20,039 nucleotides of DNA from a virus: IMG/VR virus record IMGVR_UViG_3300032323_001801, positions 1 through 20,039 of that record; one strand, written 5' to 3'. A program made the translations under genes and the position numbers. Shown here one piece after another: positions 4,751 to 14,285 of the stretch (position 1 is the first letter of the stretch; every line of letters starts with the position of its first letter). The notes under the pieces are model-generated. The model had not been told where the DNA came from and ran no database searches. It was given only the letters and a program-made list of their open reading frames with translations.

Positions 4751-4787
4751 ATAGCATAAATACTCTAATAATGGGTAGTTATGCTAT
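4751..4787 (+). promoter_or_regulatory. Long hairpin hiding the start codon of the first late gene
   Basis: A perfect 9-bp inverted repeat, ATAGCATAA (4751-4759) with TTATGCTAT (4779-4787), continues after one A/G mismatch into five more pairs (TACTC 4761-4765 with GGGTA 4773-4777, one G-U), leaving a 7-base loop. The 3' arm contains the GGGTAG region and most of the ATG at 4786. RNA reading through from the clpA cluster would fold and mask this start. RNA starting at the late-promoter motif would lack the 5' arm and be translatable. Confidence 0.7.
4756..4762 (+). promoter_or_regulatory. T4-type late promoter motif ATAAATA
   Basis: CATAAATAC matches the T4 late-promoter core (TATAAATA) and the NATAAATA form described for T4-like cyanophages. 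It lies in a gap between genes, just ahead of the first capsid-tag gene. Transcription would begin about six bases downstream, near 4768, inside the loop of the hairpin. Confidence 0.6.
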
Positions 4788-5142
4788 GAAAACATTCAAA
4801 GAATTATTTGAAAGCCTTGATAAACCAGAAAACTGGTTAGAAGAAACATATCACGGCGATGATTTTTATCTACAATACGGTGACGTAGAAGAATCTTTAG
4901 AAGAAGCAGAGTATCGCGGACGTAAGGTTTCTCTGGGTAAACCGATGCAGGGCGATGTTAAAAAATTCAAAGTCTATGTGCGTAACCCACAGGGTAATGT
5001 TGTCAAAGTAAACTTTGGCGATCCCAACATGAAAATCAAAAAGTCTAATCCTGCAAGACGTCGCAGTTTCCGTGCCCGACATAATTGCGATAATCCCGGA
5101 CCAAGACACAAGGCACGTTACTGGAGTTGTCGCAAATGGTAA
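4786..5142 (+). CDS. Small basic protein with capsid-targeting-like N-terminus
   Basis: Upstream in-frame TTG (4735) and ATG (4771) starts exist, but ATG 4786 gives MKTFKELFESL, which closely resembles the T4 internal-protein capsid targeting sequence MKTYQEFIAE and contains an L-x-E site (LFE). From that start the protein is 118 residues. A central acidic stretch (about 31-42) is followed by a basic C-terminal domain with KKFKVYVRNPQGNVVKVNFG (about 60-79) and RARHNCDNPGPRHKARYWSC near the end, including two cysteines. From memory this C-terminal type recurs in marine T4-like phages without an assigned function. It is the first gene of the putative late block, under the hairpin/late-promoter element, and overlaps the next gene by 7 bases. 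Confidence 0.8.
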   Translation: MKTFKELFESLDKPENWLEETYHGDDFYLQYGDVEESLEEAEYRGRKVSLGKPMQGDVKKFKVYVRNPQGNVVKVNFGDPNMKIKKSNPARRRSFRARHNCDNPGPRHKARYWSCRKW

Positions 5143-5483
5143 AATTATACGAGTTAGATCAGCAATTAAAAAATTTAGAAGATGTAGATTTAGTAGACGA
5201 TCTACATTACTTCATGAACAACGATCCTAAATTTTATAGAAGAATTATGTATCCTGTTCTAAGTCAAGTAAAGAACAAGATGAAACAAGGACAGGGTTGC
5301 AGTCATGATGTCTTTAGACCCTGTGTAGATACAGCAGCCAAACTCTATTGTAAAAAGTTTCAAATACCAAGCAATGACAAATCTGTGTTTACCGATGTTG
5401 ACAGAGATGCACTAGCACGTAAAATATTTCAACAAGAAAGTGAAAGAATTAAGCAAGGCGCATACGATAGGAACGAACAATGA
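5136..5483 (+). CDS. Conserved-looking small phage protein, unknown function
   Basis: ATG 5136 is preferred over the in-frame TTG at 5127 because GGAG at 5123-5126 is nine bases upstream of the ATG. The 115-residue product starts MVKLYELDQQLKNLED, is mostly predicted alpha-helical, and has three cysteines in its middle (GQGCSHDVFRPC, YCKK). The N-terminus contains L-Y-E, a possible prohead-protease site, but resembles the other capsid tags only weakly. The segment FYRRIMYPVLSQVKNKMK and the C-terminal DRDALARKIF...RIKQGAYD resemble an unassigned protein I recall from T4-like marine phages. Its stop overlaps the next start as ATGA, indicating translational coupling inside the putative capsid-protein block. 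Confidence 0.75.
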   Translation: MVKLYELDQQLKNLEDVDLVDDLHYFMNNDPKFYRRIMYPVLSQVKNKMKQGQGCSHDVFRPCVDTAAKLYCKKFQIPSNDKSVFTDVDRDALARKIFQQESERIKQGAYDRNEQ

Positions 5484-6223
5484 TATTGTTAGAAGGCGGC
5501 AATGTATTTGCAGATGCTACTCCTTTTGATCACAAAGAAGTACCTGCAATATTAAAAAGAGTTAATGATGCATTGCAAGGCACAGGCATACGTGCTATTC
5601 CTGTAGGCAGTGCTGCCACACCAACTCCTGGAAAACAAAGCGGAGATATGGATGTCATTGTTGATGAAAAGGCTGTGCTAGATTTTTTTAAAGCCAAAGA
5701 TGCTAAAACTGGTCGTAAAGCATTAAACGATTATATTGCTGGTAAAGGATTAGAAACTGCACAGAGCGGTATTAATGTTCATGTCCGTGTACCAACAGAA
5801 GATAGTTTTGCACAAGTGGACGTTATGGTGTCTCAAAATGCAGAACGTGTTTCTCAATTTCATAAACACAATATTCCAGCAGGTAGTCCTTACAAAGGTG
5901 TTAACAAACAATTAGTCATGGCCATACTTGCTAAGAGCAAAGGCTATATGTGGAGTGCGTGGCAAGGTCTATTCAGCCGCACACCCGACGGCAAAAAAGG
6001 GTCGTTAGTCACAGACGAACTAGCAGACATAGCAGAAATATTAACAGGAAAGAAAAACGCCGCAGTGTTAGGCAGTGTTGAAAGCATTTTAGATGCACTT
6101 CCAAAAGATCAAGCAGACGCATTGTTAGCCAAAGCCAAAGAAGATCCTAACTGGAGGGAAGTTCCAGTTAAACAAGAAAGTGCTGAACTACAGCGTATTA
6201 GAAAGTTGAGTGGATTAGCATGA
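5480..6223 (+). CDS. Pol-beta-type nucleotidyltransferase-like protein
   Basis: This 247-residue protein has a minimal nucleotidyltransferase core: a GS motif (VGSAATPTPGKQ, residues about 42-53), then GDMDVIVD supplying the paired metal-binding aspartates, and a third acidic position in AQVDVMV (about 113-119). The N-terminus MILLEGGNVFAD matches a nucleotidyltransferase group I recall from marine T4-like phages that begins with EGGNVF. Substrate is unknown; the superfamily includes tRNA CCA-adding enzymes, terminal transferases and antitoxin-type AMPylases. The C-terminus ESAELQRIRKLSGLA matches a short motif also found at the end of the 11535 gene. Start and stop overlap neighbours by ATGA, placing it directly before a ligase-like enzyme. 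Confidence 0.82.
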   Translation: MILLEGGNVFADATPFDHKEVPAILKRVNDALQGTGIRAIPVGSAATPTPGKQSGDMDVIVDEKAVLDFFKAKDAKTGRKALNDYIAGKGLETAQSGINVHVRVPTEDSFAQVDVMVSQNAERVSQFHKHNIPAGSPYKGVNKQLVMAILAKSKGYMWSAWQGLFSRTPDGKKGSLVTDELADIAEILTGKKNAAVLGSVESILDALPKDQADALLAKAKEDPNWREVPVKQESAELQRIRKLSGLA

Positions 6224-7371
6224 GACTAAGAGAAATTTTTTCAGGCTTAACAGAAGCAACGGCACCTAAACAATTAGGCCGTGCATTTAACCATTTAGAA
6301 GATTTAGTTTTCTTTTACGGCAGTAAAGGCACACAAGAAGCATTAAGCCATATTAAAGACTTTGCTACACAACAAGGTGCTGAAAGTATTCGTATGAAGT
6401 GGGACGGTAATCCTCAAATTTATTGGGGTAGAGAAACAAAGAACGGTCCACTATTGCTAGGTGGTCACAACGGTTGGAGCCGTGGAGCAAAAACTGACAG
6501 TCCTGAGGCTATTAGAGATTTTATTTTAAATAAAAGTGGTAGTCCTAAAACTCCAGACGAACAAGCGGCACGTGAACAATTTGCTGGACAGTTTGCTAGT
6601 TTATATGATTACTTCGATCGTAGTACACCCAGAGACTTTGTAGGATTTGTTTATGCTGATGGATTATTCCTACAACGTCCGCAATTAGACAAAGAAGATG
6701 TTTATAACTTCTGTCCTAATCCTAAATCACAAACCTGCTATCACGTTCGCAAAGACAGCGACCTTGGCAAGCGTATAGCACAGGCAGACGTTATGGTTGT
6801 TGGTCATGCATATTTTCCACAATGGGGCATGCCTGATTCAGCACAAAAACCAATTTCAGACTTCAGTCAATTTAATTCTAATCCTAAGTTAATAGTGTTA
6901 GGTCCTATCTATAATAAAAAACCTGTTAAGATAGACGATGACAGTGTGTTGGCTGTAGAAAAATATCTAGCACAACACGCAGGACAAATAGACGGCTTCC
7001 TTGCAGACACTGCGGGATTGGCAGATTTAAAAGATATCCTTTACAAGTATGTAAATCAAACAGCCAAAGCCAAACAATTAGACGACGTCAGTATGGCACA
7101 CTTTAAGCAATGGTTAAACACTGCTAAAGTCAGTGCAGGTAAAATGGCCAAAATTGATGAAAAAATTAAAGCAAATCCTAACGGTCTTGATGCCATATTT
7201 AAATTAGTACGTATGATACAAGATATGAAGGACGATGTTATTGATCAAATAGAAGGCGAGCAGGGAGACATATGGGACACACAAGGTGAAGGCCGTGTAC
7301 GCTATGCTGATCAAGGTAAAGAATTTGGTAATGTAAAACTAGTACCTCGTAAAAGGTGGACACCGCAATGA
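6220..7371 (+). CDS. Ligase-superfamily covalent nucleotidyltransferase-like protein with capsid tag
   Basis: The protein has 383 residues. After an N-terminal tag MRLREIFSGLTE, which contains the T4 prohead-protease-type site L-T-E, the core carries MKWDGNPQ (Lys60 to Gln66). This is the KxDG motif I where ATP-dependent DNA/RNA ligases and capping enzymes form a lysyl-AMP. FVGFVYADGLFL is a plausible motif III. GEGRVRYADQGKEFGNVKLV near the C-terminus fits motif IV (EG) and motif V (VKLV). From memory similar KWDG proteins are common in marine T4-like phages and lack a proven function. No separate OB-fold domain is evident. It may seal or adenylylate nucleic acid ends, but the substrate is not known. 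ATGA overlaps link it to both neighbours. Confidence 0.78.
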   Translation: MRLREIFSGLTEATAPKQLGRAFNHLEDLVFFYGSKGTQEALSHIKDFATQQGAESIRMKWDGNPQIYWGRETKNGPLLLGGHNGWSRGAKTDSPEAIRDFILNKSGSPKTPDEQAAREQFAGQFASLYDYFDRSTPRDFVGFVYADGLFLQRPQLDKEDVYNFCPNPKSQTCYHVRKDSDLGKRIAQADVMVVGHAYFPQWGMPDSAQKPISDFSQFNSNPKLIVLGPIYNKKPVKIDDDSVLAVEKYLAQHAGQIDGFLADTAGLADLKDILYKYVNQTAKAKQLDDVSMAHFKQWLNTAKVSAGKMAKIDEKIKANPNGLDAIFKLVRMIQDMKDDVIDQIEGEQGDIWDTQGEGRVRYADQGKEFGNVKLVPRKRWTPQ

Positions 7372-8261
7372 GATTAAGAAAGTTATTTGAAGCGTTAGGC
7401 GAAGAAGTTGCTATTATATTCGGCCGTTTTAATCCTCCACACAAAGGACACAGAGCCGCTTGGGAATTAGCCAGCAAGAGTCCTGTATGGTTTGTAGGTA
7501 CCAATCAAAGTACACAAGGACCAAAAGACCCATTACCGTTTAACGTTAAAGTAGAAGCAATGAAAACTGTATGGCCCAAAGTAGAAGGACACATAGTTTC
7601 TGAAACAGGATGGTTGACATTGGCCAGCAGAGTATATGAAAAATATCCCAAGGCTACGTTGTTGTGTCTTACAGATGAGGATTGGGTTACTAAAACTATT
7701 CAACAGTATAACGGCAGGGAAGGCGCACACGGCTACTATAACTTTGCAAAAATTGAACAGAAGCCCACACCAAGATTAAGTTCAGCCACAGCACTACGTG
7801 ATGCAGTTATTAAAGGTGACAGAGAAGCATTTACAGTTGCCGCGGGAGTAGACGCCGATACAAATGTAGCCGGTAAACCTTTCTTTGATCTAGTAGCAGA
7901 ATACTTACTGCCCTATCAAAATGCTCCTAAAAAAACTAGTAAAAAGAAAGTTGCAGAGCCTGCAGAAAGTATAAGCGAAGCACCTATTGAAATGAATCCT
8001 GAAGATCCTATGGATCCAATGATCTATGGACACGATAAGGCCAATCCTGGCAGTTTAAAATATCGTATGATGAGAGCATCAAAACAACTAGCAGATCTTG
8101 CCGCCCGTGCTGAAAACGCTGGCCCTGGAGAATGGGACACTATTACTAAACATTTTCAAGAATTAAAAATGAACATTGAGCAGATACGTCACGGTTTAGA
8201 AGAACTACGTAAAATGCGTAGTCGAGGTGGTCGTGGAAGTAGAGGCATAGAGAAATTCTAA
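7368..8261 (+). CDS. HxGH-type adenylyltransferase (NMNAT/cytidylyltransferase-like) fused to a helical domain
   Basis: ATG 7368 (overlapping the previous TGA as ATGA) is preferred over GTG 7356, because it gives the tag MRLRKLFEALGE followed at once by the enzyme core. The 297-residue product has GRFNPPHKGH (19-28), the nucleotide-binding HxGH motif, and SSATALRDAV (138-147), matching the ISSTxxR signature of NMN adenylyltransferases and phosphopantetheine adenylyltransferases. Residues 1-185 form this Rossmann-like domain. A Lys-rich linker and I-S-E (202-204) lead to a separate C-terminal module (about 205-297: MNPEDPMDPMIYGHDKANPG, helical, Arg/Gly-rich end), which resembles a stand-alone small protein of marine phages as I recall. 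Substrate (NMN, pantetheine phosphate or other) cannot be decided from sequence. Confidence 0.82.
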   Translation: MRLRKLFEALGEEVAIIFGRFNPPHKGHRAAWELASKSPVWFVGTNQSTQGPKDPLPFNVKVEAMKTVWPKVEGHIVSETGWLTLASRVYEKYPKATLLCLTDEDWVTKTIQQYNGREGAHGYYNFAKIEQKPTPRLSSATALRDAVIKGDREAFTVAAGVDADTNVAGKPFFDLVAEYLLPYQNAPKKTSKKKVAEPAESISEAPIEMNPEDPMDPMIYGHDKANPGSLKYRMMRASKQLADLAARAENAGPGEWDTITKHFQELKMNIEQIRHGLEELRKMRSRGGRGSRGIEKF

Positions 8262-8479
8262 TGGACATAAAAGATTTAAAACGTCTTGCTGGCATAGAAG
8301 AATTCAAAGGATATAAGCCCGTTGAAGGTATTAATATTTCTCATACCGGCACAGAAAAACGTGAACTTGAACGTAAGCACAACATTAGACCTGGTACACC
8401 TGAATGGTTCCAATTATGGTTTAGTCTGCCTTACATGACTGGCGAAAAACCAGTGGGCAAAGGAATCAGAAACAAATGA
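8261..8479 (+). CDS. Small protein with capsid-tag-like N-terminus
   Basis: This gene encodes 72 residues starting MDIKDLKRLAGIEEFKGYKP. The first 14 residues are amphipathic and end in I-E-E, a fit to the [LI]-x-E prohead-protease site. The tag resembles the [KR]L[AS]G motif at the C-termini of the 5480 and 11535 products. The remainder contains RPGTPEWFQLWFSLPYMTGEKP, an aromatic segment conserved-looking but of unknown role. The start overlaps the previous stop as TAATG and the stop overlaps the next start as ATGA, so its translation is coupled to the adenylyltransferase and HAD/GH19 genes. A structural or internal virion peptide is the best guess. Confidence 0.75.
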   Translation: MDIKDLKRLAGIEEFKGYKPVEGINISHTGTEKRELERKHNIRPGTPEWFQLWFSLPYMTGEKPVGKGIRNK

Positions 8480-9861
8480 GATTTCGTGACATAGAACCTA
8501 AAAAGTTAGTGGTCTTTGACATAGACGATACTTTAGTACATACCCAAACTAAGGTACACGTAGTCAAAGACGGCAAAGTTGTTAAGAGTTTAAACAGTCA
8601 CGACTTCACACACTATAAACTACAGCCTGGCGAAAAGTTTGATTTTGAAGATTTTAAAAATGCTAGAGAATTTTTTGACAATCATAAACCTATTATTCCT
8701 ATGATGAATCAGCTCAAACGTGATATTGCTACAGGTAATAAAGTTGTAATGGTAACTGCTCGATCTGATTTTGACGACAAAGAATTATTTCTAGATACGT
8801 TTCGTAAGTATGGAATAGATATGAACAAAGTTCATGTTTATCGAGCAGGTAATATCAAAGACGGATCAACAGAACAGCGTAAAAAAACAATTATTAAAAC
8901 ATTGCTAGATAAAGGTAATTATACCAAGGCCATTATGTATGATGATGCGAAACCTAATCTACATAGTTTTATGGAATTAAAAAAGGATCATCCTCATACA
9001 CGCTTTTATGCATGGTTGGTTAGTCTTGAAGGTGAGGCTTCTGAATACATGCGAGAGGACCTTGTCAGCGAACGTAAAAAGAAAAGAAAAAAGAATAAAA
9101 GTAAACGTACATACGGTGCAGTATGGGGTCCAGGTCCTTATGGGCTGTACGGTTGGGACGCAGGATACAGCGGTAGTGGTGGAGTATCGTCCGGCGACGG
9201 CGGTGGCGGTGTTGGCGAAGACATAGAAGAAGGTTGGAAAGATTGGGTAGCAGGTGCGGCACTAGGTGCGGCGGCATTAACTGCCAGTCCAGACGTTACA
9301 GCCAAAGTAGACAACAAAGCCGGTGTTATACAACAAGTTAAGAAAAAAGATATTGCTAAAACTGTAACAGGTTCGCCTCACGAAGTAGTATTAAAGAAAT
9401 ATGCAGAGAAAGCAGGAATAAAAGGTCAAGAACTTGCGGCGTTCTTAGCACAGTGCGCACATGAAACAATGAACTTTAAACACATGAAGGAAATTGGAGG
9501 CAGTCTAGACTTCCGTAAATACGATCCCAAGTATGCACCTAAGAAGGCCAAAGCACTAGGCAATAAAGTTGTAGGTGACGGTGCCAAGTTTAAAGGAAGA
9601 GGATACATACAACTTACTGGTCGTTATAATTATAAACGTGCCGGAGAAGCGTTAGGATTACCTTTAGAAAAACATCCTGAATTAGTTGAAAAACCTGAAG
9701 TGGCTGCCAAAGTTGCCGTGTGGTATTGGCAAAATCGTGTTGCTCCAAAGGTTGATACATTTAAAGATGTTAGAGCAGTAACTAAACCTATTAACCCAGG
9801 TATGAAACATTTAGATCAAAGAAAAGAGAAACATCAAGCATTCCAGGTGGCCATGAAATGA
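8476..9861 (+). CDS. HAD phosphatase fused to a GH19 chitinase/muramidase-like domain
   Basis: This 461-residue protein has two enzyme modules. Residues 8-185 form a HAD phosphatase: motif I VVFDIDDTLV (nucleophile Asp15, acid Asp17), motif II VMVTARSD (Thr94), and motif IV YDDAKPN (Asp156/Asp157). It resembles polynucleotide 3'-phosphatase or nucleotidase-type HADs. A basic stretch (KKKRKKNKSKR, about 201-211) and a Gly-rich linker follow, then DIEEGWKDWVAGAALGAAAL (249-268) with a hydrophobic segment. Residues 305-440 are GH19-like: AHETMNF with the likely catalytic Glu330, then FKGRGYIQLTGR (372-383). I-E-E at 250-252, between the modules, fits the T4 prohead-protease site, so the two could be separated during head maturation. 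GH19 enzymes in phages serve as endolysins or entry muramidases. Confidence 0.85.
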   Translation: MRFRDIEPKKLVVFDIDDTLVHTQTKVHVVKDGKVVKSLNSHDFTHYKLQPGEKFDFEDFKNAREFFDNHKPIIPMMNQLKRDIATGNKVVMVTARSDFDDKELFLDTFRKYGIDMNKVHVYRAGNIKDGSTEQRKKTIIKTLLDKGNYTKAIMYDDAKPNLHSFMELKKDHPHTRFYAWLVSLEGEASEYMREDLVSERKKKRKKNKSKRTYGAVWGPGPYGLYGWDAGYSGSGGVSSGDGGGGVGEDIEEGWKDWVAGAALGAAALTASPDVTAKVDNKAGVIQQVKKKDIAKTVTGSPHEVVLKKYAEKAGIKGQELAAFLAQCAHETMNFKHMKEIGGSLDFRKYDPKYAPKKAKALGNKVVGDGAKFKGRGYIQLTGRYNYKRAGEALGLPLEKHPELVEKPEVAAKVAVWYWQNRVAPKVDTFKDVRAVTKPINPGMKHLDQRKEKHQAFQVAMK

Positions 9862-10478
9862 GAGCAAAAGAATTTATAACAGAAAACTTTGCAGACGGAA
9901 AGAAACCCGGACGCAAAGGATTGGCAAAACGTAGTGGTGTTAATACTAAAGCCAGTGTTAGTAGTTTAAGAAAAACTGCTAAAAACAGTTCAGGCGAAAA
10001 ACAGCGTATGGCGCACTGGTTGGCTAATATGAAAGCAGGCCGTGCTAAAAAGAAAACAAACGAGTCTGTAGATTTTGAACAGATGCAACCGCAGAATATT
10101 ATAGCCGTAGCTCAACAGACATTTGCTAAACTTTATCCCAATGTTAAACTATACGGAAAGTCAGTAGTAGAAGGTGTAGGGTTAACAACACACAAAGGTG
10201 GAGCAGGCAGTGCCAGTGCATTTGCCGGTGGTGATACTCGTCGTGGTGAGTTTTATCTTACCTTAAATGCTTATGCCGAAGGTGACGCAATGATTGTAGT
10301 TATTGAAGATGCCACTGCTGGTAACTACAAAGGTGCCGCTACTGCTATTATCAAGTCATTGTTCGAAGCAGGCGAAAGACTATACAAAACAGAACAACGT
10401 GAATTAGTGGTTAACGATAATTCAAATTACGATGCATGGTCTACTATTGCTGATCGTGTAGGTGCAGAGTTACTATGA
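9858..10478 (+). CDS. Basic protein with strong capsid-targeting-like tag
   Basis: The protein has 206 residues. MRAKEFITE (1-9) is a close match to T4 MKTYQEFIAE with the protease site I-T-E. Residues 10-67 are strongly basic and rich in Ser/Lys/Gly (GKKPGRKGLAKRSGVN, SSLRKTAKNSSGEKQRM, WLANMKAGRAKKK), a nucleic-acid-binding-like segment I recall as frequent in marine T4-like phages. Residues about 72-206 form a separate alpha/beta domain (QNIIAVAQQTFAKLYPNVKLYG, GDAMIVVIEDATAGNYKGA) with no recognised motif. The first 27 bases are 23/27 identical to those of the next gene. ATGA overlaps join it to both neighbours. A packaged DNA-associated internal protein is a reasonable inference. Confidence 0.78.
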   Translation: MRAKEFITENFADGKKPGRKGLAKRSGVNTKASVSSLRKTAKNSSGEKQRMAHWLANMKAGRAKKKTNESVDFEQMQPQNIIAVAQQTFAKLYPNVKLYGKSVVEGVGLTTHKGGAGSASAFAGGDTRRGEFYLTLNAYAEGDAMIVVIEDATAGNYKGAATAIIKSLFEAGERLYKTEQRELVVNDNSNYDAWSTIADRVGAELL

Positions 10479-10933
10479 GAGCAAAAGAGTTTGTTACCGA
10501 ACAACATTTAGACGAACTGTTTAAACCAGGTCAGCAATGGGATTGGAAATTTACCGGCTACAGTGAAGCCGTTGCTTCGTTTAAAGTAGGTGACGTTCCT
10601 TATGAGTTTCATGCTGATCACGAAGGCGACGGTGAATGGGACGTAGAATTTAAACGCATTGGTTATGATCTTGATAAATCACAAAAGTACGGTTTAACCG
10701 GTACAGGGCGCAGTGCCGAAGTTATGAGCGTTGTAGTTGATATCATGCGTTCATTTATAAAAGAATATAAAGATGATATAGAAGTATTGAGATTTTCAGC
10801 CAAGGAAGGTTCACGTCGAGATCTTTATAGCAAAATGATCAGCCGATTACTGCCTAACTGGACATTAACACAAGATGGCGAAACCTTTGTACTACGTGCT
10901 CCTAATCCTTATAAGGCCAATAAGATACAATAA
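10475..10933 (+). CDS. Unknown alpha/beta protein with capsid-tag-like start
   Basis: The product has 152 residues beginning MRAKEFVTEQHLDELFKPG. The tag is nearly the same as in the gene before it. V-T-E replaces I-T-E, but L-D-E four residues later would satisfy the [LI]-x-E rule. The rest looks like one small alpha/beta domain: GDVPYEFHADHEGDGEWDVEF as strands, SAEVMSVVVDIMRSFIKEY as a helix, DIEVLRFSAKEGSRRDLYSK, then a C-terminal strand. This layout resembles an acetyltransferase-like or DUF-type fold seen in phages, but I cannot assign a family. It is coupled to the previous gene by ATGA. Its stop overlaps an ATAAATA motif, so transcription may restart right after it. Confidence 0.75.
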   Translation: MRAKEFVTEQHLDELFKPGQQWDWKFTGYSEAVASFKVGDVPYEFHADHEGDGEWDVEFKRIGYDLDKSQKYGLTGTGRSAEVMSVVVDIMRSFIKEYKDDIEVLRFSAKEGSRRDLYSKMISRLLPNWTLTQDGETFVLRAPNPYKANKIQ

Positions 10934-10936
10934 ATA
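10930..10936 (+). promoter_or_regulatory. T4-type late promoter motif ATAAATA
   Basis: AATAAATAT lies in the short gap between genes, overlapping the TAA stop of the 10475 gene, seven bases before the ATG at 10944. Transcription starting about six bases downstream would give an almost leaderless message. AT-richness makes chance matches possible, so this is a moderate call. Confidence 0.45.
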
Positions 10937-10943
10937 TTATATT

Positions 10944-11516
10944 ATGAAACTATACGAAATTATCTCAGAATCTAAAAAAGCCGAGGCTCCTAAGCCACGT
11001 AATTTTGTTGCTAAAAATGCTGTAAAAACTACATCAGGCGCCGGCGCACACAAAGATAAAAAGAGAGCCGAAAAGCAAGGCGATTTTAAGCACAAGAAAG
11101 AAAAAGTTCCTATGGGTGAAAGAGTACGAGATCCAGAAGATTGGGATGAAGGTAACACAGAACCACCTAATAACTTTGCTGTATACATTAATGGCAAGAA
11201 ATGGAAAGTATTTAAAGGTCGCGGACAATTTGCCAATGATTATAAAGAAATACAGCATTATCGACAACTTCGAAACTGGGCTCAGGCAAAATCTGCCGCC
11301 ACTGGAAAAAAATGGGAAGTTTCAGTCACTGGAGAGCCTGCTACAGAAAGTATGCAGGAAACTGCTACAGCGGGTGCTACAAGTGCTGGTAATGTTGGAG
11401 TAGGTGCAATTTATAAAAATAAACCTGGTAAAACACCTAAAAACAAAGATGGTACTGCAAAAAACGCCCTAGATATGAAAAACAATCTGCTCACCGGCGG
11501 TAGTGTTAAACGATAA
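10944..11516 (+). CDS. Lysine-rich protein with capsid-targeting-like tag
   Basis: An in-frame ATG at 10875 lies inside the previous gene. ATG 10944 is chosen because it gives MKLYEIISE, a capsid-tag look-alike ending in I-S-E. The product is then 190 residues. Residues 10-62 are basic (KPRNFVAKNAVKTTSGAGAH, KDKKRAEKQGDFKHKKEK). A middle domain (about 76-130: NNFAVYINGKKWKVFKGRG, then GKKWEVSVTG) looks like a small beta-rich fold. An Ala/Thr/Gly-rich linker leads to a tail NALDMKNNLLTGGSVKR that I recall from other marine phage proteins. Function is unknown. The modular build (tag, basic region, small domain, tail) matches an internal or structural virion protein. Confidence 0.78.
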   Translation: MKLYEIISESKKAEAPKPRNFVAKNAVKTTSGAGAHKDKKRAEKQGDFKHKKEKVPMGERVRDPEDWDEGNTEPPNNFAVYINGKKWKVFKGRGQFANDYKEIQHYRQLRNWAQAKSAATGKKWEVSVTGEPATESMQETATAGATSAGNVGVGAIYKNKPGKTPKNKDGTAKNALDMKNNLLTGGSVKR

Positions 11517-11519
11517 ATA
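11513..11519 (+). promoter_or_regulatory. T4-type late promoter motif ATAAATA
   Basis: CGATAAATACAG sits between genes, overlapping the TAA stop of the 10944 gene, with an AGGAG ribosome site at 11527-11531 and ATG at 11535/11538. A start of transcription near 11525 would leave a short leader still containing the ribosome site. Confidence 0.5.
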
Positions 11520-11534
11520 CAGTATCAGGAGATT

Positions 11535-12521
11535 ATGATGCACGACGAAATAAAACCACAAATGCCCGTAGATGACAGCGAAGTCCGCATGGCTCGCGCT
11601 GAGCTATATAGAGCCGCTAAAAATTCTATGAAACTTTTTGAAATGATTCAAGAAGGACAAGAATTAGAAGGTTGGGTTAGTGCTAAGATTACAAAGGCAG
11701 CAGATTACCTAGATTCAGTGTATCATTACATGGAATATCAAGTAAAATTTGGTCAAGGCGGAACTGCTTCTAGCCTAGACGATATCACATCCGACGCCAC
11801 AATGGCTGTTAAAAGTGAAGTTTCTGAAGAGGACGATGAAAAAGAAATGAAAGAATCCGCATACCAACAAAAACTACAGGCCCTGTTAGAAGGTGCTATG
11901 AAGAAGGTCAAAGGCAAAAAAGCCGAAGAAAAGAAAGATGAAAAAATGGACGAAGCCAAATTTCAAGCCAGCGGTGTTCGTGCCACTGATAAGAAAAAAG
12001 GTAAAGTTGAAAAAACAACTCGCAAAGCCTATTTCTTAAAGTTTGAAAAAGACGGTCGCACCAAAGGTGTAACAATGGTCGCAGACGAAGGCGAAAGTCT
12101 TGGTGATATGAAGGATCGCGCCAAGCGTGAAAACATGGGCTGGTCATTAGTCAGCGTTCGTGAAAAAGAAGCCGTTGAAGAAAGCAAACAAGAAGACGCT
12201 AAGAAAGCCGAAGAAGAAAAGAAAAAGAAAGAAGAAAAGAAAAAGAAAATTGCTAAGATTGTGGACGAAGGAAAGAGTGAAGCACAAAAGGCTGCTCAAG
12301 AAAAATTCAAAGCCATGATTTCTAAAAAGAAGGGCGATAAGAAAGACGACAAAGAAGTTAAAGAAGCAAAGAAAGCCAAACCAGACTTCTTAGACGTCGA
12401 TAAAGACGGTGACAAAAAAGAACCTATGAAGAAGGCCGTTGCTGACAAAAAAGAAGTTAAGGAAAGTGCAGAACTTTCTGACATTCTTAAACTAGCAGGT
12501 CGTCGTCCAATTAACGGTTAA
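11535..12521 (+). CDS. Highly charged Lys/Glu-rich head-type protein
   Basis: The product has 328 residues. Two ATGs occur in tandem, and the second (11538) has better spacing from AGGAG 11527-11531. Residues about 15-72 form a helical segment (MARAELYRAAKNSMKLFEMI, EGQELEGWVSAKITKAADYL, YHYMEYQVKF) that I recognise as a recurrent but unassigned marine T4-like phage motif. A small domain (about 160-212: RKAYFLKFEKDGRTKGVTM) follows, then a long Lys/Glu coiled-coil-like stretch (213-282). DVDKDGDKKEPMKK (287-300) is a calcium-loop-like motif. The C-terminus ESAELSDILKLAGRR matches the end of the 5480 product. L-L-E at 117-119 is a possible protease site. The charge pattern suits a prohead core or scaffold-like protein, an inference only. 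Confidence 0.78.
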   Translation: MMHDEIKPQMPVDDSEVRMARAELYRAAKNSMKLFEMIQEGQELEGWVSAKITKAADYLDSVYHYMEYQVKFGQGGTASSLDDITSDATMAVKSEVSEEDDEKEMKESAYQQKLQALLEGAMKKVKGKKAEEKKDEKMDEAKFQASGVRATDKKKGKVEKTTRKAYFLKFEKDGRTKGVTMVADEGESLGDMKDRAKRENMGWSLVSVREKEAVEESKQEDAKKAEEEKKKKEEKKKKIAKIVDEGKSEAQKAAQEKFKAMISKKKGDKKDDKEVKEAKKAKPDFLDVDKDGDKKEPMKKAVADKKEVKESAELSDILKLAGRRPING

Positions 12522-12531
12522 GGATCAAGTT

Positions 12532-13167
12532 ATGGACATGAAACAGATTCTTGCTGCCTTTGACGGTGCTGGTAAAAGGCCTGTTACAGGCACCAACGAC
12601 ATGAAAAAGTTTGTGTCTATTATCAAAGAAAACTCTGCCCCAACACAAGAAGCAATTATCACAGGGTTTGAAGAAGACAGCATCGGCGGACAGGCCAATG
12701 CTTTTCTTATTTCCGCTGATAAGATCAACGACATGGTCATGAGCGAAATTGAAAAAGTTAAAATTAATGCTAACCCAGAATTACTAAAAGGGTTGATGAA
12801 TAAGTTTAACGAATTCATGACTGCTTATCACAGTGTGGGTAAAGAAATTCTTCAACCAGATATGTTTAAAGATGATGTTAATGTTGAAGAAGGTGCCGCA
12901 GAAGATCTAGCACAGATTGAAAAACACCCTGCCGCAGATGATCCACGTATTCAGCAGGCTGTAGCAGACAAGAAAAAAGAATTTGATACTAAAGAAGAAG
13001 GCATACACAATGGCCTAGCATTTAAAGACTATTTTGCTTTAGAAGAAGCCAAAAAGAAAATTACCTCTAAGGAAGATCCTTGCTGGAAAGGTTACAAGAT
13101 GGTAGGCACTAAGAAAAAAGGCGGCCGAGAAGTGCCTAATTGTGTACCAGGCAAGAAGGGTGACTGA
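12532..13167 (+). CDS. Helical phage protein with C-terminal DPCWKGY module
   Basis: The product has 211 residues starting MDMKQILAAFDGAGKRPV, which resembles the start of the 8261 product. Residues 50-115 are helical and hydrophobic-patterned (FLISADKINDMVMSEIEKVK, KGLMNKFNEFMTAYHSVGKE). An acidic middle follows. Residues 164-172 (FKDYFALEE) look like an internal capsid-tag with an L-E-E site, placed directly before AKKKITSKEDPCWKGYKM and ending VPNCVPGKKGD. The DPCWKGY...PNCVP module is, from memory, a widespread C-terminal piece in marine T4-like phages. The layout suggests fusion of two originally separate small proteins. The start has only a weak ribosome site (AAGGA about 12520). The stop overlaps the next ATG as TGATGA. 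Confidence 0.76.
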   Translation: MDMKQILAAFDGAGKRPVTGTNDMKKFVSIIKENSAPTQEAIITGFEEDSIGGQANAFLISADKINDMVMSEIEKVKINANPELLKGLMNKFNEFMTAYHSVGKEILQPDMFKDDVNVEEGAAEDLAQIEKHPAADDPRIQQAVADKKKEFDTKEEGIHNGLAFKDYFALEEAKKKITSKEDPCWKGYKMVGTKKKGGREVPNCVPGKKGD

Positions 13168-14285
13168 TGAAAATCAACGAGTTATTTGATAGACCAATTC
13201 ATCGTCGAGCAGAACTAGGAAAAATTGTTCGAGCTGTCATTGCCTCTGGTAATACCGAAGCATGGGATCAATTAGATGCTGAAGAAAAATTCTACGGGTT
13301 AGATGATAATGGTCTGGTACCCGATACTGCAAGTCCCTGGGAATGGAAGGACGCTAATAGGTCTGACAAGGTGTTGTTTAATGCTATCCGTCAAAGACAA
13401 GACAACAAATATCAAGTCGATATCGGTCCTGAGAAACGCAACGAGCTTAATGCCAAGGCCGAAGAACTAGCAGAAATGCGTCGTCAACAGTTACGTAAAG
13501 AAGCATTAGAAGATGCGGAGTTAGCGTTCCAACGTGCCGAGACTCGAGCACAACGCGAAGCAGAAATGGAAAAGATCAAACGTCAATTCCAACACGATCT
13601 TGAGGTGATCAATACTGACCATCGCAATAACATGGAAGCCATACGAACTGGCAATTCTCATGAGATTGCAAAAATGGACAAAGAACATAGTCACGAAAAA
13701 ACAATGTTCGACAAAGAAGCAAAAGAAAGAGATAAAGATAGAGCAGAACGTGAAAGACAGCAAAATCGTCCAAGTCAGGACAGTGGCAATATTCCAGATC
13801 TAGATAAAGAGAAAGATCAGGAATATCAAGATTTTAAAGCAGATTTGTTTAAACTTTCAGGTGTACCGTTGCCTGCTCCAGAAAAGAAAGATGACAACAA
13901 TCCATCAAAGTTCGATAACAGCGATGCCGTTGATGTAGATTTTAAAGAAGTTCCATCAGATGATGAAAAGAAAAACGATCAAGGAAAACCAAACATGCTA
14001 CCAGGACCAAAGAAAGAAAATATTTCATATTTTAGAGATCTTGTAGATAATATGCAAGCATCGACTGCACCGCCAACAAAAAACATTCCTAATCTTCAGA
14101 AAAAATTTAAAGTTGGACAAACAGTTGAGTTTGGTCATTTTCTTAAAATGGATAAACATCAAGTAGGTAAGATTGTTAATATAGACGATCATATCCTAAC
14201 TATAGATGTAGACGGAAAACCTGTAAAAGTTCATATTGGTAACAAGAGTTTAGCAATTAATATCCTAGACGAAAAACAAGTATGA
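13167..14285 (+). CDS. Coiled-coil protein with capsid-tag-like start and beta-barrel-like C-terminus
   Basis: The product has 372 residues starting MKINELFDRPIHRR, similar to the other tags but without a nearby [LI]-x-E. Residues 15-90 look globular (AWDQLDAEEKFYGLDDNG, PWEWKD). Residues about 88-205 are a long charged coiled coil (Glu/Arg/Gln heptad-like: KAEELAEMRRQQLRKEALED onward). A disordered acidic stretch follows, containing DLFKLSGVPLPAP, a relative of the [KR]L[AS]G motif. The C-terminus (about 320-372: VGQTVEFGHFLKMDKHQVGK, IVNIDDHILTIDVDGKPVKV) looks like an SH3/KOW-type beta barrel. No enzyme motif is seen. It ends the putative internal-protein block and overlaps the lipoprotein gene by ATGA. 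Confidence 0.78.
   Translation: MKINELFDRPIHRRAELGKIVRAVIASGNTEAWDQLDAEEKFYGLDDNGLVPDTASPWEWKDANRSDKVLFNAIRQRQDNKYQVDIGPEKRNELNAKAEELAEMRRQQLRKEALEDAELAFQRAETRAQREAEMEKIKRQFQHDLEVINTDHRNNMEAIRTGNSHEIAKMDKEHSHEKTMFDKEAKERDKDRAERERQQNRPSQDSGNIPDLDKEKDQEYQDFKADLFKLSGVPLPAPEKKDDNNPSKFDNSDAVDVDFKEVPSDDEKKNDQGKPNMLPGPKKENISYFRDLVDNMQASTAPPTKNIPNLQKKFKVGQTVEFGHFLKMDKHQVGKIVNIDDHILTIDVDGKPVKVHIGNKSLAINILDEKQV

Follow-up and report, generated by a model that had tools for sequence, protein, structure and literature searches.

The tagged genes of the window

The stretch considered here (the window) is a viral DNA fragment of 20,039 bases, IMG/VR record IMGVR_UViG_3300032323_001801, positions 1 to 20,039, whose 27 genes include those for DnaJ, Def, a ClpA-like protein, a run of small proteins and enzymes, a Dps-like protein, DsbA and gp43, a set that fits, as judged by sequence, a T4-like phage. 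Megablast comparison of the window with an annotated phage collection returned no match and no close relative. Seven of the window products begin with a short, recurrent N-terminal tag, which an initial annotation had proposed to be a capsid-targeting sequence of the T4 kind carried by enzymes destined for the phage head. The seven N-termini quoted there are indeed true starts of open reading frames (ORFs), and are listed below with an arrow marking each predicted cut.

4786-5142, plus strand: tagged small protein of 118 amino acids, start MKTFKELFESL; tag MKTFKELFE (4786-4812), predicted cut LFE↓S
6220-7371, plus strand: DUF6267 enzyme; tag MRLREIFSGLTE (6220-6255), predicted cut LTE↓A
7368-8261, plus strand: NMNAT/cytidylyltransferase-like enzyme (FGRFNPPHKGH), start MRLRKLFEALGE; tag MRLRKLFE (7368-7391)
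9858-10478, plus strand: tagged protein; tag MRAKEFITE (9858-9884), followed by a lysine-rich module and, C-terminally, a rare domain
10475-10933, plus strand: tagged protein; tag MRAKEFVTE (10475-10501); the 9858 product has an unrelated body
10944-11516, plus strand: tagged basic protein; tag MKLYEIISE (10944-10970), followed by a DUF7230-like module, PRNFVAKNA..GAGAHKDKKRA
13167-14285, plus strand: tagged coiled-coil-like protein, start MKINELFDRP; tag MKINELFD (13167-13190), without an [LI]xE cut site

The pattern M[KR]..(E/K)-hydrophobic-hydrophobic, together with [LI]xE within residues 4-15, occurs in six of the 27 window genes against 0.30 expected, and none of 5000 shuffles, in which residues 3-15 were permuted and residue 2 was kept, reached six. 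These six genes all lie between 4786 and 11516. The statement of the initial annotation that most of the tags contain [LI]xE holds for six of the seven, with the motif near residue 10 (as LFE at residues 7-9 in the 4786 product); the exception is the 13167 product, which has ELFD instead. No tag is found on the genes named at the outset as a background check, namely dnaJ (MSDHYNTLG), def (MQVSDFQLK), clpA (MVEPSEELQ), dsbA (MSSRTYGPE) and gp43 (MGYVDALFD). Hydrophobic residues in the window tags retain the i, i+3, i+4 spacing, mostly offset by one residue relative to T4. The 4786 product shares its first six residues (MKTFKE) with the T4 internal protein IPI; its tag is kept in related loci L002-L004 and L007, and its body matches phrog_7595. 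No canonical T4-type tag turned up when the DNA of the window was scanned, and the window thus uses only variant types. Since the test pattern was modelled on the list of N-termini in the initial annotation, the shuffle result alone is partly circular, and the argument therefore relies on more independent tests: a related genome, public loci, the virion proteins of cyanophage S-CREM2 and a scan for the canonical tag.

Conservation in related genomes and public viral DNA

The set of relatives comprised 32 viral contigs encoding a relative of the 6220 product. Contigs G001 and G002 overlap at 99-100% protein identity and represent one phage of ~325 kb together, the genes of which were called with a purpose-made caller that recovers most, not all, of the window starts. 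The tag plus cut motif occurs in 8 of its 309 genes against 0.41 expected (maximum of 4 in 2000 shuffles) and in 3 of 1469 internal Met windows. Across all six frames, RA[KAS][ED]F is present exactly six times, each straight after a start ATG, and these repeated tags differ in synonymous codons, which argues that selection acts on the protein. G002 encodes a gp21-family protease (PF03420, E=7.8e-27), as well as a gp22-like scaffold and gp23, both named from position and sequence, and residues 1-31 of one of its tagged proteins match the PHROG 'internal head protein'. Its major capsid protein reads YLSE↓SASTG, compared to FLTE↓AEIGG in T4, a site consistent, at the sequence level, with the same cut rule.

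Alignment of N-termini across relatives bears out the annotation, the tag and core being kept and the linker variable in orthologues of both the 6220 and 7368 products. Among 18 DUF6267 orthologues, mean pairwise identity is 0.60 in the tag (the first eight residues), 0.13 in the linker, which ranges in length from 2 to 38, and 0.81 in the core; the corresponding values for 15 NMNAT-like proteins are 0.67, 0.12 and 0.72. The L002-L004 proteins have a basic insert of ~31 residues between the tag and a core that is 82-97% identical to that of the window. Orthologues also exchange tags (MRLRE..., MRANEFISE, MRARDFLRE, MRAKEFLFE, MKSFxxF), and [LI]xE is present in 12 of the 18 DUF6267 orthologues by the strict form and in 17 by a relaxed form that allows for the FxE or YxE of some. 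The initial annotation had placed the cut of the 7368 product at GE↓EVAII, which is not kept; a cut after LFE (LFE↓A) is more likely because nearly all orthologues retain LFE at residues 6-8.

For the 6220 product, the AlphaFold2 model has a predicted local distance difference test score (pLDDT) <50 for residues 1-21, which are predicted to be disordered, and a confident fold (mean pLDDT 88) from residue 22, such that the tag lies outside the fold. This agrees with the initial annotation in part, although the core begins ~10 residues past the predicted LTE↓A cut and not directly after it. The core contains an invariant KxDG (K60, D62, G63). Comparison of the model with the PDB gave no significant match, the best being DNA ligase IV (E=0.017), and several of the top non-significant matches are DNA and RNA ligases; the designation 'ligase-like' is thus based on the KxDG, which is invariant, and on a weak resemblance in fold, and this protein is possibly a ligase or nucleotidyltransferase.

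An IMG/VR codon scan for MRAKEF-x-x-E, with position 7 limited to codons with a middle T and covering at least 120 stretches, returned at least 134 matches in at least 120 loci. Among the matches listed, 134/134 stand at an ORF start and all have an in-frame stop within the 50 codons upstream, whereas the same is true of only 30% of Mets in the same loci (p~1e-70). The bodies behind the listed tags form at least 28 single-linkage clusters, one of only 57 amino acids, with at least 27 unrelated bodies, and include a GH19+LysM protein, an amidoligase, an ADP-ribosyltransferase-family protein and DUF6267. The MRAKEF-tagged ADP-ribosyltransferase-family protein (L089:6643-7242), which is of the same enzyme class as the packaged Alt of T4, adjoins a second tagged protein. 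Again among the matches listed, a gp21-family gene was found in 6/7 tag-bearing contigs larger than 120 kb and in 0/7 of those of 62-96 kb, which are probably fragments. The phage contig G010 (524,565 bases, locus L082) has both an MRAKEF tag and a gp21-family protease.

A second scan of public DNA, for the canonical M-K-x-F-x-x-F-[FL]-x-E-A in ORFs of at least 40 amino acids, gave 111 matches, each at the start of an ORF and none within a longer one, with 28 body clusters and 9 further short ORFs without an assigned position. The canonical tag is carried by two DUF6267 proteins (E=5.8e-102 and 1.2e-26), by a HAD protein 38% identical to the window 8476 product, by cytidylyltransferases, and by a 40-residue protein composed solely of the tag and the CWK..VPNCVP module present C-terminally in the window 12532 product. 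Three enzyme families of the window therefore carry the textbook T4 tag (MKxFxxFLxE↓A) elsewhere. Chance and start-codon bias were rejected as explanations on the basis of the shuffles and the position of the public matches at ORF starts.

Virion proteomes and the weighing of alternatives

In T4, residues 4 and 7 are the main determinants of IPIII targeting and residues 8 and 10 those of its processing, while an Asp at position 10 blocks cutting and leaves targeting intact; capsid-targeting sequences have been suggested as a general protein-packaging route of T4-like phages (PMC9026906). As a control, the strict tag pattern marks only ipII, ipIII and 61.1 in T4. The last of these (NC_000866, 18966-19130, minus strand, locus L189) encodes 54 residues starting MKTFKEFIKED and, from its sequence, may be an unrecognised internal head protein. 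In cyanophages, the cytidylyltransferase T4-GC190 was detected in purified S-SM1 virions (Sullivan et al. 2010; PMC3037559), and NMNAT-like or cytidylyltransferase proteins appear in the published virion proteomes of S-SCSM1, S-SZBM1 and S-CREM2. The enzymes begin with MKSFLQFLKE↓A in S-SCSM1, MKNFSSFLTE↓A in S-CREM2 and MRFRQFIIE↓A in S-SZBM1, and proteins annotated as T4-GC190 with MKSFSQFLTE↓T in P-SSM2 and MKSFFQFLSE↓A in S-SM2. In a comparison of 11 tagged cytidylyltransferases from cyanophages, M1, F4, F7 and E10 never vary, in agreement with the positions identified in T4 IPIII, and A11 is present in 10.

For S-CREM2, broad patterns were fixed before its sequences were seen and compared with the virion list of the published paper. 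Tags were found on 5/28 non-classical virion proteins against 3/167 undetected proteins, those three being shorter than 70 residues; when only proteins of at least 75 amino acids are considered, the counts are 5/28 and 0/101 (p=3.6e-4), and all five tagged proteins of that size are in virions. None of the 24 classical structural proteins is tagged. A stricter pattern in the T4 register, written post hoc, marks four proteins, all of them in the virion: an S-adenosylmethionine (SAM) hydrolase, an APH-like kinase, the cytidylyltransferase and gp13. The virion-detected, Cas9-like gp12 of this phage (OR473000, 7704-10313, L063) has a tag-like LRFASFMAEA near residue 17 and a tag-like C-terminal KTFRDFLN, in place of a tag at residue 1.

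It is very probable that the window tags are capsid-targeting sequences of the T4 kind that load enzymes into the prohead, as the initial annotation had proposed. Capsid targeting is best supported because the tags share the functional pattern mapped in T4, because the same enzyme families bear the textbook T4 tag in other phages, because tagged enzymes occur in published virion proteomes and because large tag-bearing contigs usually encode a gp21-family protease. With the docking partner and order of events most likely as in T4, from which they are taken by analogy, the tag would form a short amphipathic N-terminal helix (hydrophobic-x-x-hydrophobic-hydrophobic, with a Glu 0-4 residues later) that binds the scaffold core during prohead assembly, such that the attached protein would be carried into the head. 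A gp21-family protease would probably cut after the Glu to free the protein, which would stay in the mature head and be ejected with the DNA. The cargo in this phage would comprise the DUF6267 KxDG enzyme, the NMNAT/cytidylyltransferase-like enzyme and several other proteins.

Several observations weigh against this interpretation. Tagged proteins 191 and 192 of S-SZBM1 lie outside its 30-protein virion list, many virion-detected proteins have no tag, and the cytidylyltransferase relatives of S-CAM9 and S-CAM3 are without one as annotated. The proteome authors note possible carry-over of abundant proteins, and cleaved N-termini are not reported in the available parts of the cyanophage virion proteome papers. 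In addition, the 13167 tag has no cut site, and the phage itself is known from sequence alone, from which we infer its packaging, scaffold docking, cleavage and injection. The lack of a cut site bears on an alternative in which the tags reach the scaffold but gp21 leaves most of them uncut, [LI]xE arising incidentally in an E-rich amphipathic helix. The 13167 tag has LFD at its end, and an Asp at T4 position 10 permits targeting and blocks cutting (PMC9026906); some DUF6267 orthologues, moreover, replace [LI]xE with FxE or YxE. Such targeting without processing is nonetheless unlikely, as the Glu is kept just behind the hydrophobic residues whereas the following linker varies freely, and 10/11 cyanophage tags have A at P1', like T4 IPII and IPIII.

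Alternatively, the tag might direct proteins to a different destination, for example the tail, a replication compartment or a membrane; the published virion lists give no position for the enzymes within the particle, and the present phage is known from sequence only. We consider such a signal very improbable given the match at functional residues to an experimentally mapped T4 head signal, the detection of tagged enzymes in virions, the co-occurrence of the tag with the head protease and the lack of a tag on any classical tail or baseplate protein of S-CREM2. Least credible of all is the proposal that the similarity is functionless in the protein and arises from a translation-initiation preference or from duplication of 5' gene ends. 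Starts with M-K/R are common (K or R occupies position 2 in 63/309 genes of the related genome), yet shuffles that keep residue 2 yield 0.3-0.4 matches against the 6-8 observed, and the repeated tags use differing synonymous codons. Furthermore, the tag survives ~50% core divergence though the linker is lost, and orthologues swap between the distinct tags MRLRE, MRANEF, MRAKEF and MKSFxxF.

Neighbouring genes, known systems and significance

The remaining features of the region are interspersed with the tagged genes and are as follows.

5127-5483, plus strand: gene without a tag here; orthologues in L025, L026, L027 and L030 start MRIRELLENK or MRIVELLEGK
5480-6223, plus strand: putative nucleotidyltransferase-like protein; start MILLEGGNVF conserved
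8261-8479, plus strand: small protein; N-terminus MDIKDLKRLAGI has a LAGI motif in place of a tag
8476-9861, plus strand: HAD phosphatase-like domain, basic linker and GH19 domain; start MRFRDIEPKKL, no clear tag
9049-9072, plus strand: internal stretch of the 8476 product resembling a tag, MREDLVSE↓RKKK
12532-13167, plus strand: protein with a conserved start, MDMKQILAAFD, different from the tag; C-terminal DPCWKGYKMVGTKKKGGREVPNCVP module

The 5480 product has no family match, and its putative function is suggested by sequence features. Its C-terminus, ELQRIRKLSGLA, resembles IDIRRLAGLK, the C-terminus of the gp22-like scaffold in the related genome. A [DE][IL]xR[IL]xxL[AS]G[LI]-like motif recurs at the C-terminus of that scaffold (G002 gene 78), at the C-termini of the window 5480 and 11535 products and at the N-terminus of the 8261 product, and could be a second head-loading or scaffold-contact signal. 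A HAD homologue of the 8476 product in L304 starts MKSFLEFLAE↓A, and in L003 and L006-L008 a homologue of its GH19 half starts at the internal tag-like stretch, as MRASEFITE↓RKK or MRAKEFIVE↓RKK. The DUF6267 protein, with its KxDG and ligase-type fold matches, and the NMNAT-like and HAD proteins tentatively suggest nucleotide, nicotinamide adenine dinucleotide (NAD) or nucleic-acid-end chemistry. PADLOC identified no defence family among the eight products tested.

Lysine-rich, often Cys/His-containing short modules, with a net charge of +5 to +15, shuffle between tagged proteins. They are located at residues 10-40 of the 6220 orthologues of L002-L004, residues 17-40 of the window 10944 product, residues 14-64 of the 9858 product and the C-terminus of the 12532 product, and are exemplified by KWSxKYKxSINCSNPKGFSQKAHCAGRKK, PRNFVAKNA..GAGAHKDKKK, CWKGYK.VGTKKK.G..VPNCVP and GRKGLAKRSG...GEKQRMAHW.ANMK.GR.KK. 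The DPCWKGYKMVGTKKKGGREVPNCVP module of the 12532 product lies directly behind a canonical tag in L317. These modules may hold cargo to packaged DNA.

The closest known system is the targeting sequence of T4 IPI, IPII and IPIII (Mullaney and Black 1996; reviewed in PMC9026906), which is likewise N-terminal, ~10 residues long and borne by unrelated bodies, with a hydrophobic pair three residues past another hydrophobic residue, a Glu cut site and a gp21-family protease, the last found here in related genomes. Unlike in the T4 internal proteins, the commonest window tags lack one residue of the T4 length or show more variation (MRAKEFxxE, MRLRELF..E), and larger enzymes, rather than small proteins, make up much of the cargo. 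The N-termini of T4 Alt (MELITELFDE) and gp24 (MAKINELLRES) share an ELF/ELL core with MKINELFD and MRLREIF, and the 13167 tag MKINELFD resembles the Alt start; gp24, however, is a shell protein, unlike the window cargo, and a targeting role for its propeptide is only putative. The virion-associated cyanophage cytidylyltransferase/NMNAT (T4-GC190) shares its enzyme class with the 7368 product and has the canonical tag in most cases, although the two share only ~25-30% identity over the core. The signal of phage P1 DarB (PMC9024508) is also N-terminal and is sufficient to put a reporter in the head, but it comprises 30 residues of other sequence and belongs to another phage group. Work on polyvalent proteins and NAD/ADP-ribose effectors (PMC9503650) likewise proposes that myoviruses carry enzymes related to NAD and RNA inside the head; packaging is inferred there from fusions and gene context, whereas here it is read from a short tag.

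A literature search for MKTYQEFIAE, quoted by the initial annotation as a T4-like tag, gave no match. The cyanophage papers, in their available parts, make no mention of a tag on the virion cytidylyltransferases, and no prior description in cyanophages was found in a search that left subscription papers mostly outside its reach; priority is not asserted. The principle is known from T4, while the shortened tags (MRAKEF, MRLRELF), the enzyme cargo in aquatic phages and the link to proteomes appear new.

More broadly, a large part of the T4-like phages, ranging from cyanophages to jumbo phages (300-500 kb), may share a single head-loading code that serves as an open slot for changing enzymes (of NAD/nucleotide metabolism, DUF6267 ligase-like, HAD, ADP-ribosyltransferase, amidoligase and wall hydrolases) with lysine-rich modules tethering the cargo to DNA and the cargo acting before phage gene expression, a proposal that we hold tentatively and rate slightly below an even chance. 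The tags described here would add protein-packaging signals for the heads of phages other than T4. If the interpretation is true, a short, readable tag would predict head-loaded phage proteins from sequence alone, and would explain the recurrent cytidylyltransferases, SAM hydrolase and kinases of cyanophage virion proteomes, where the authors had to allow for contamination. It would also yield an inventory of the proteins at work in the earliest minutes of infection, among them probably counter-defence enzymes.

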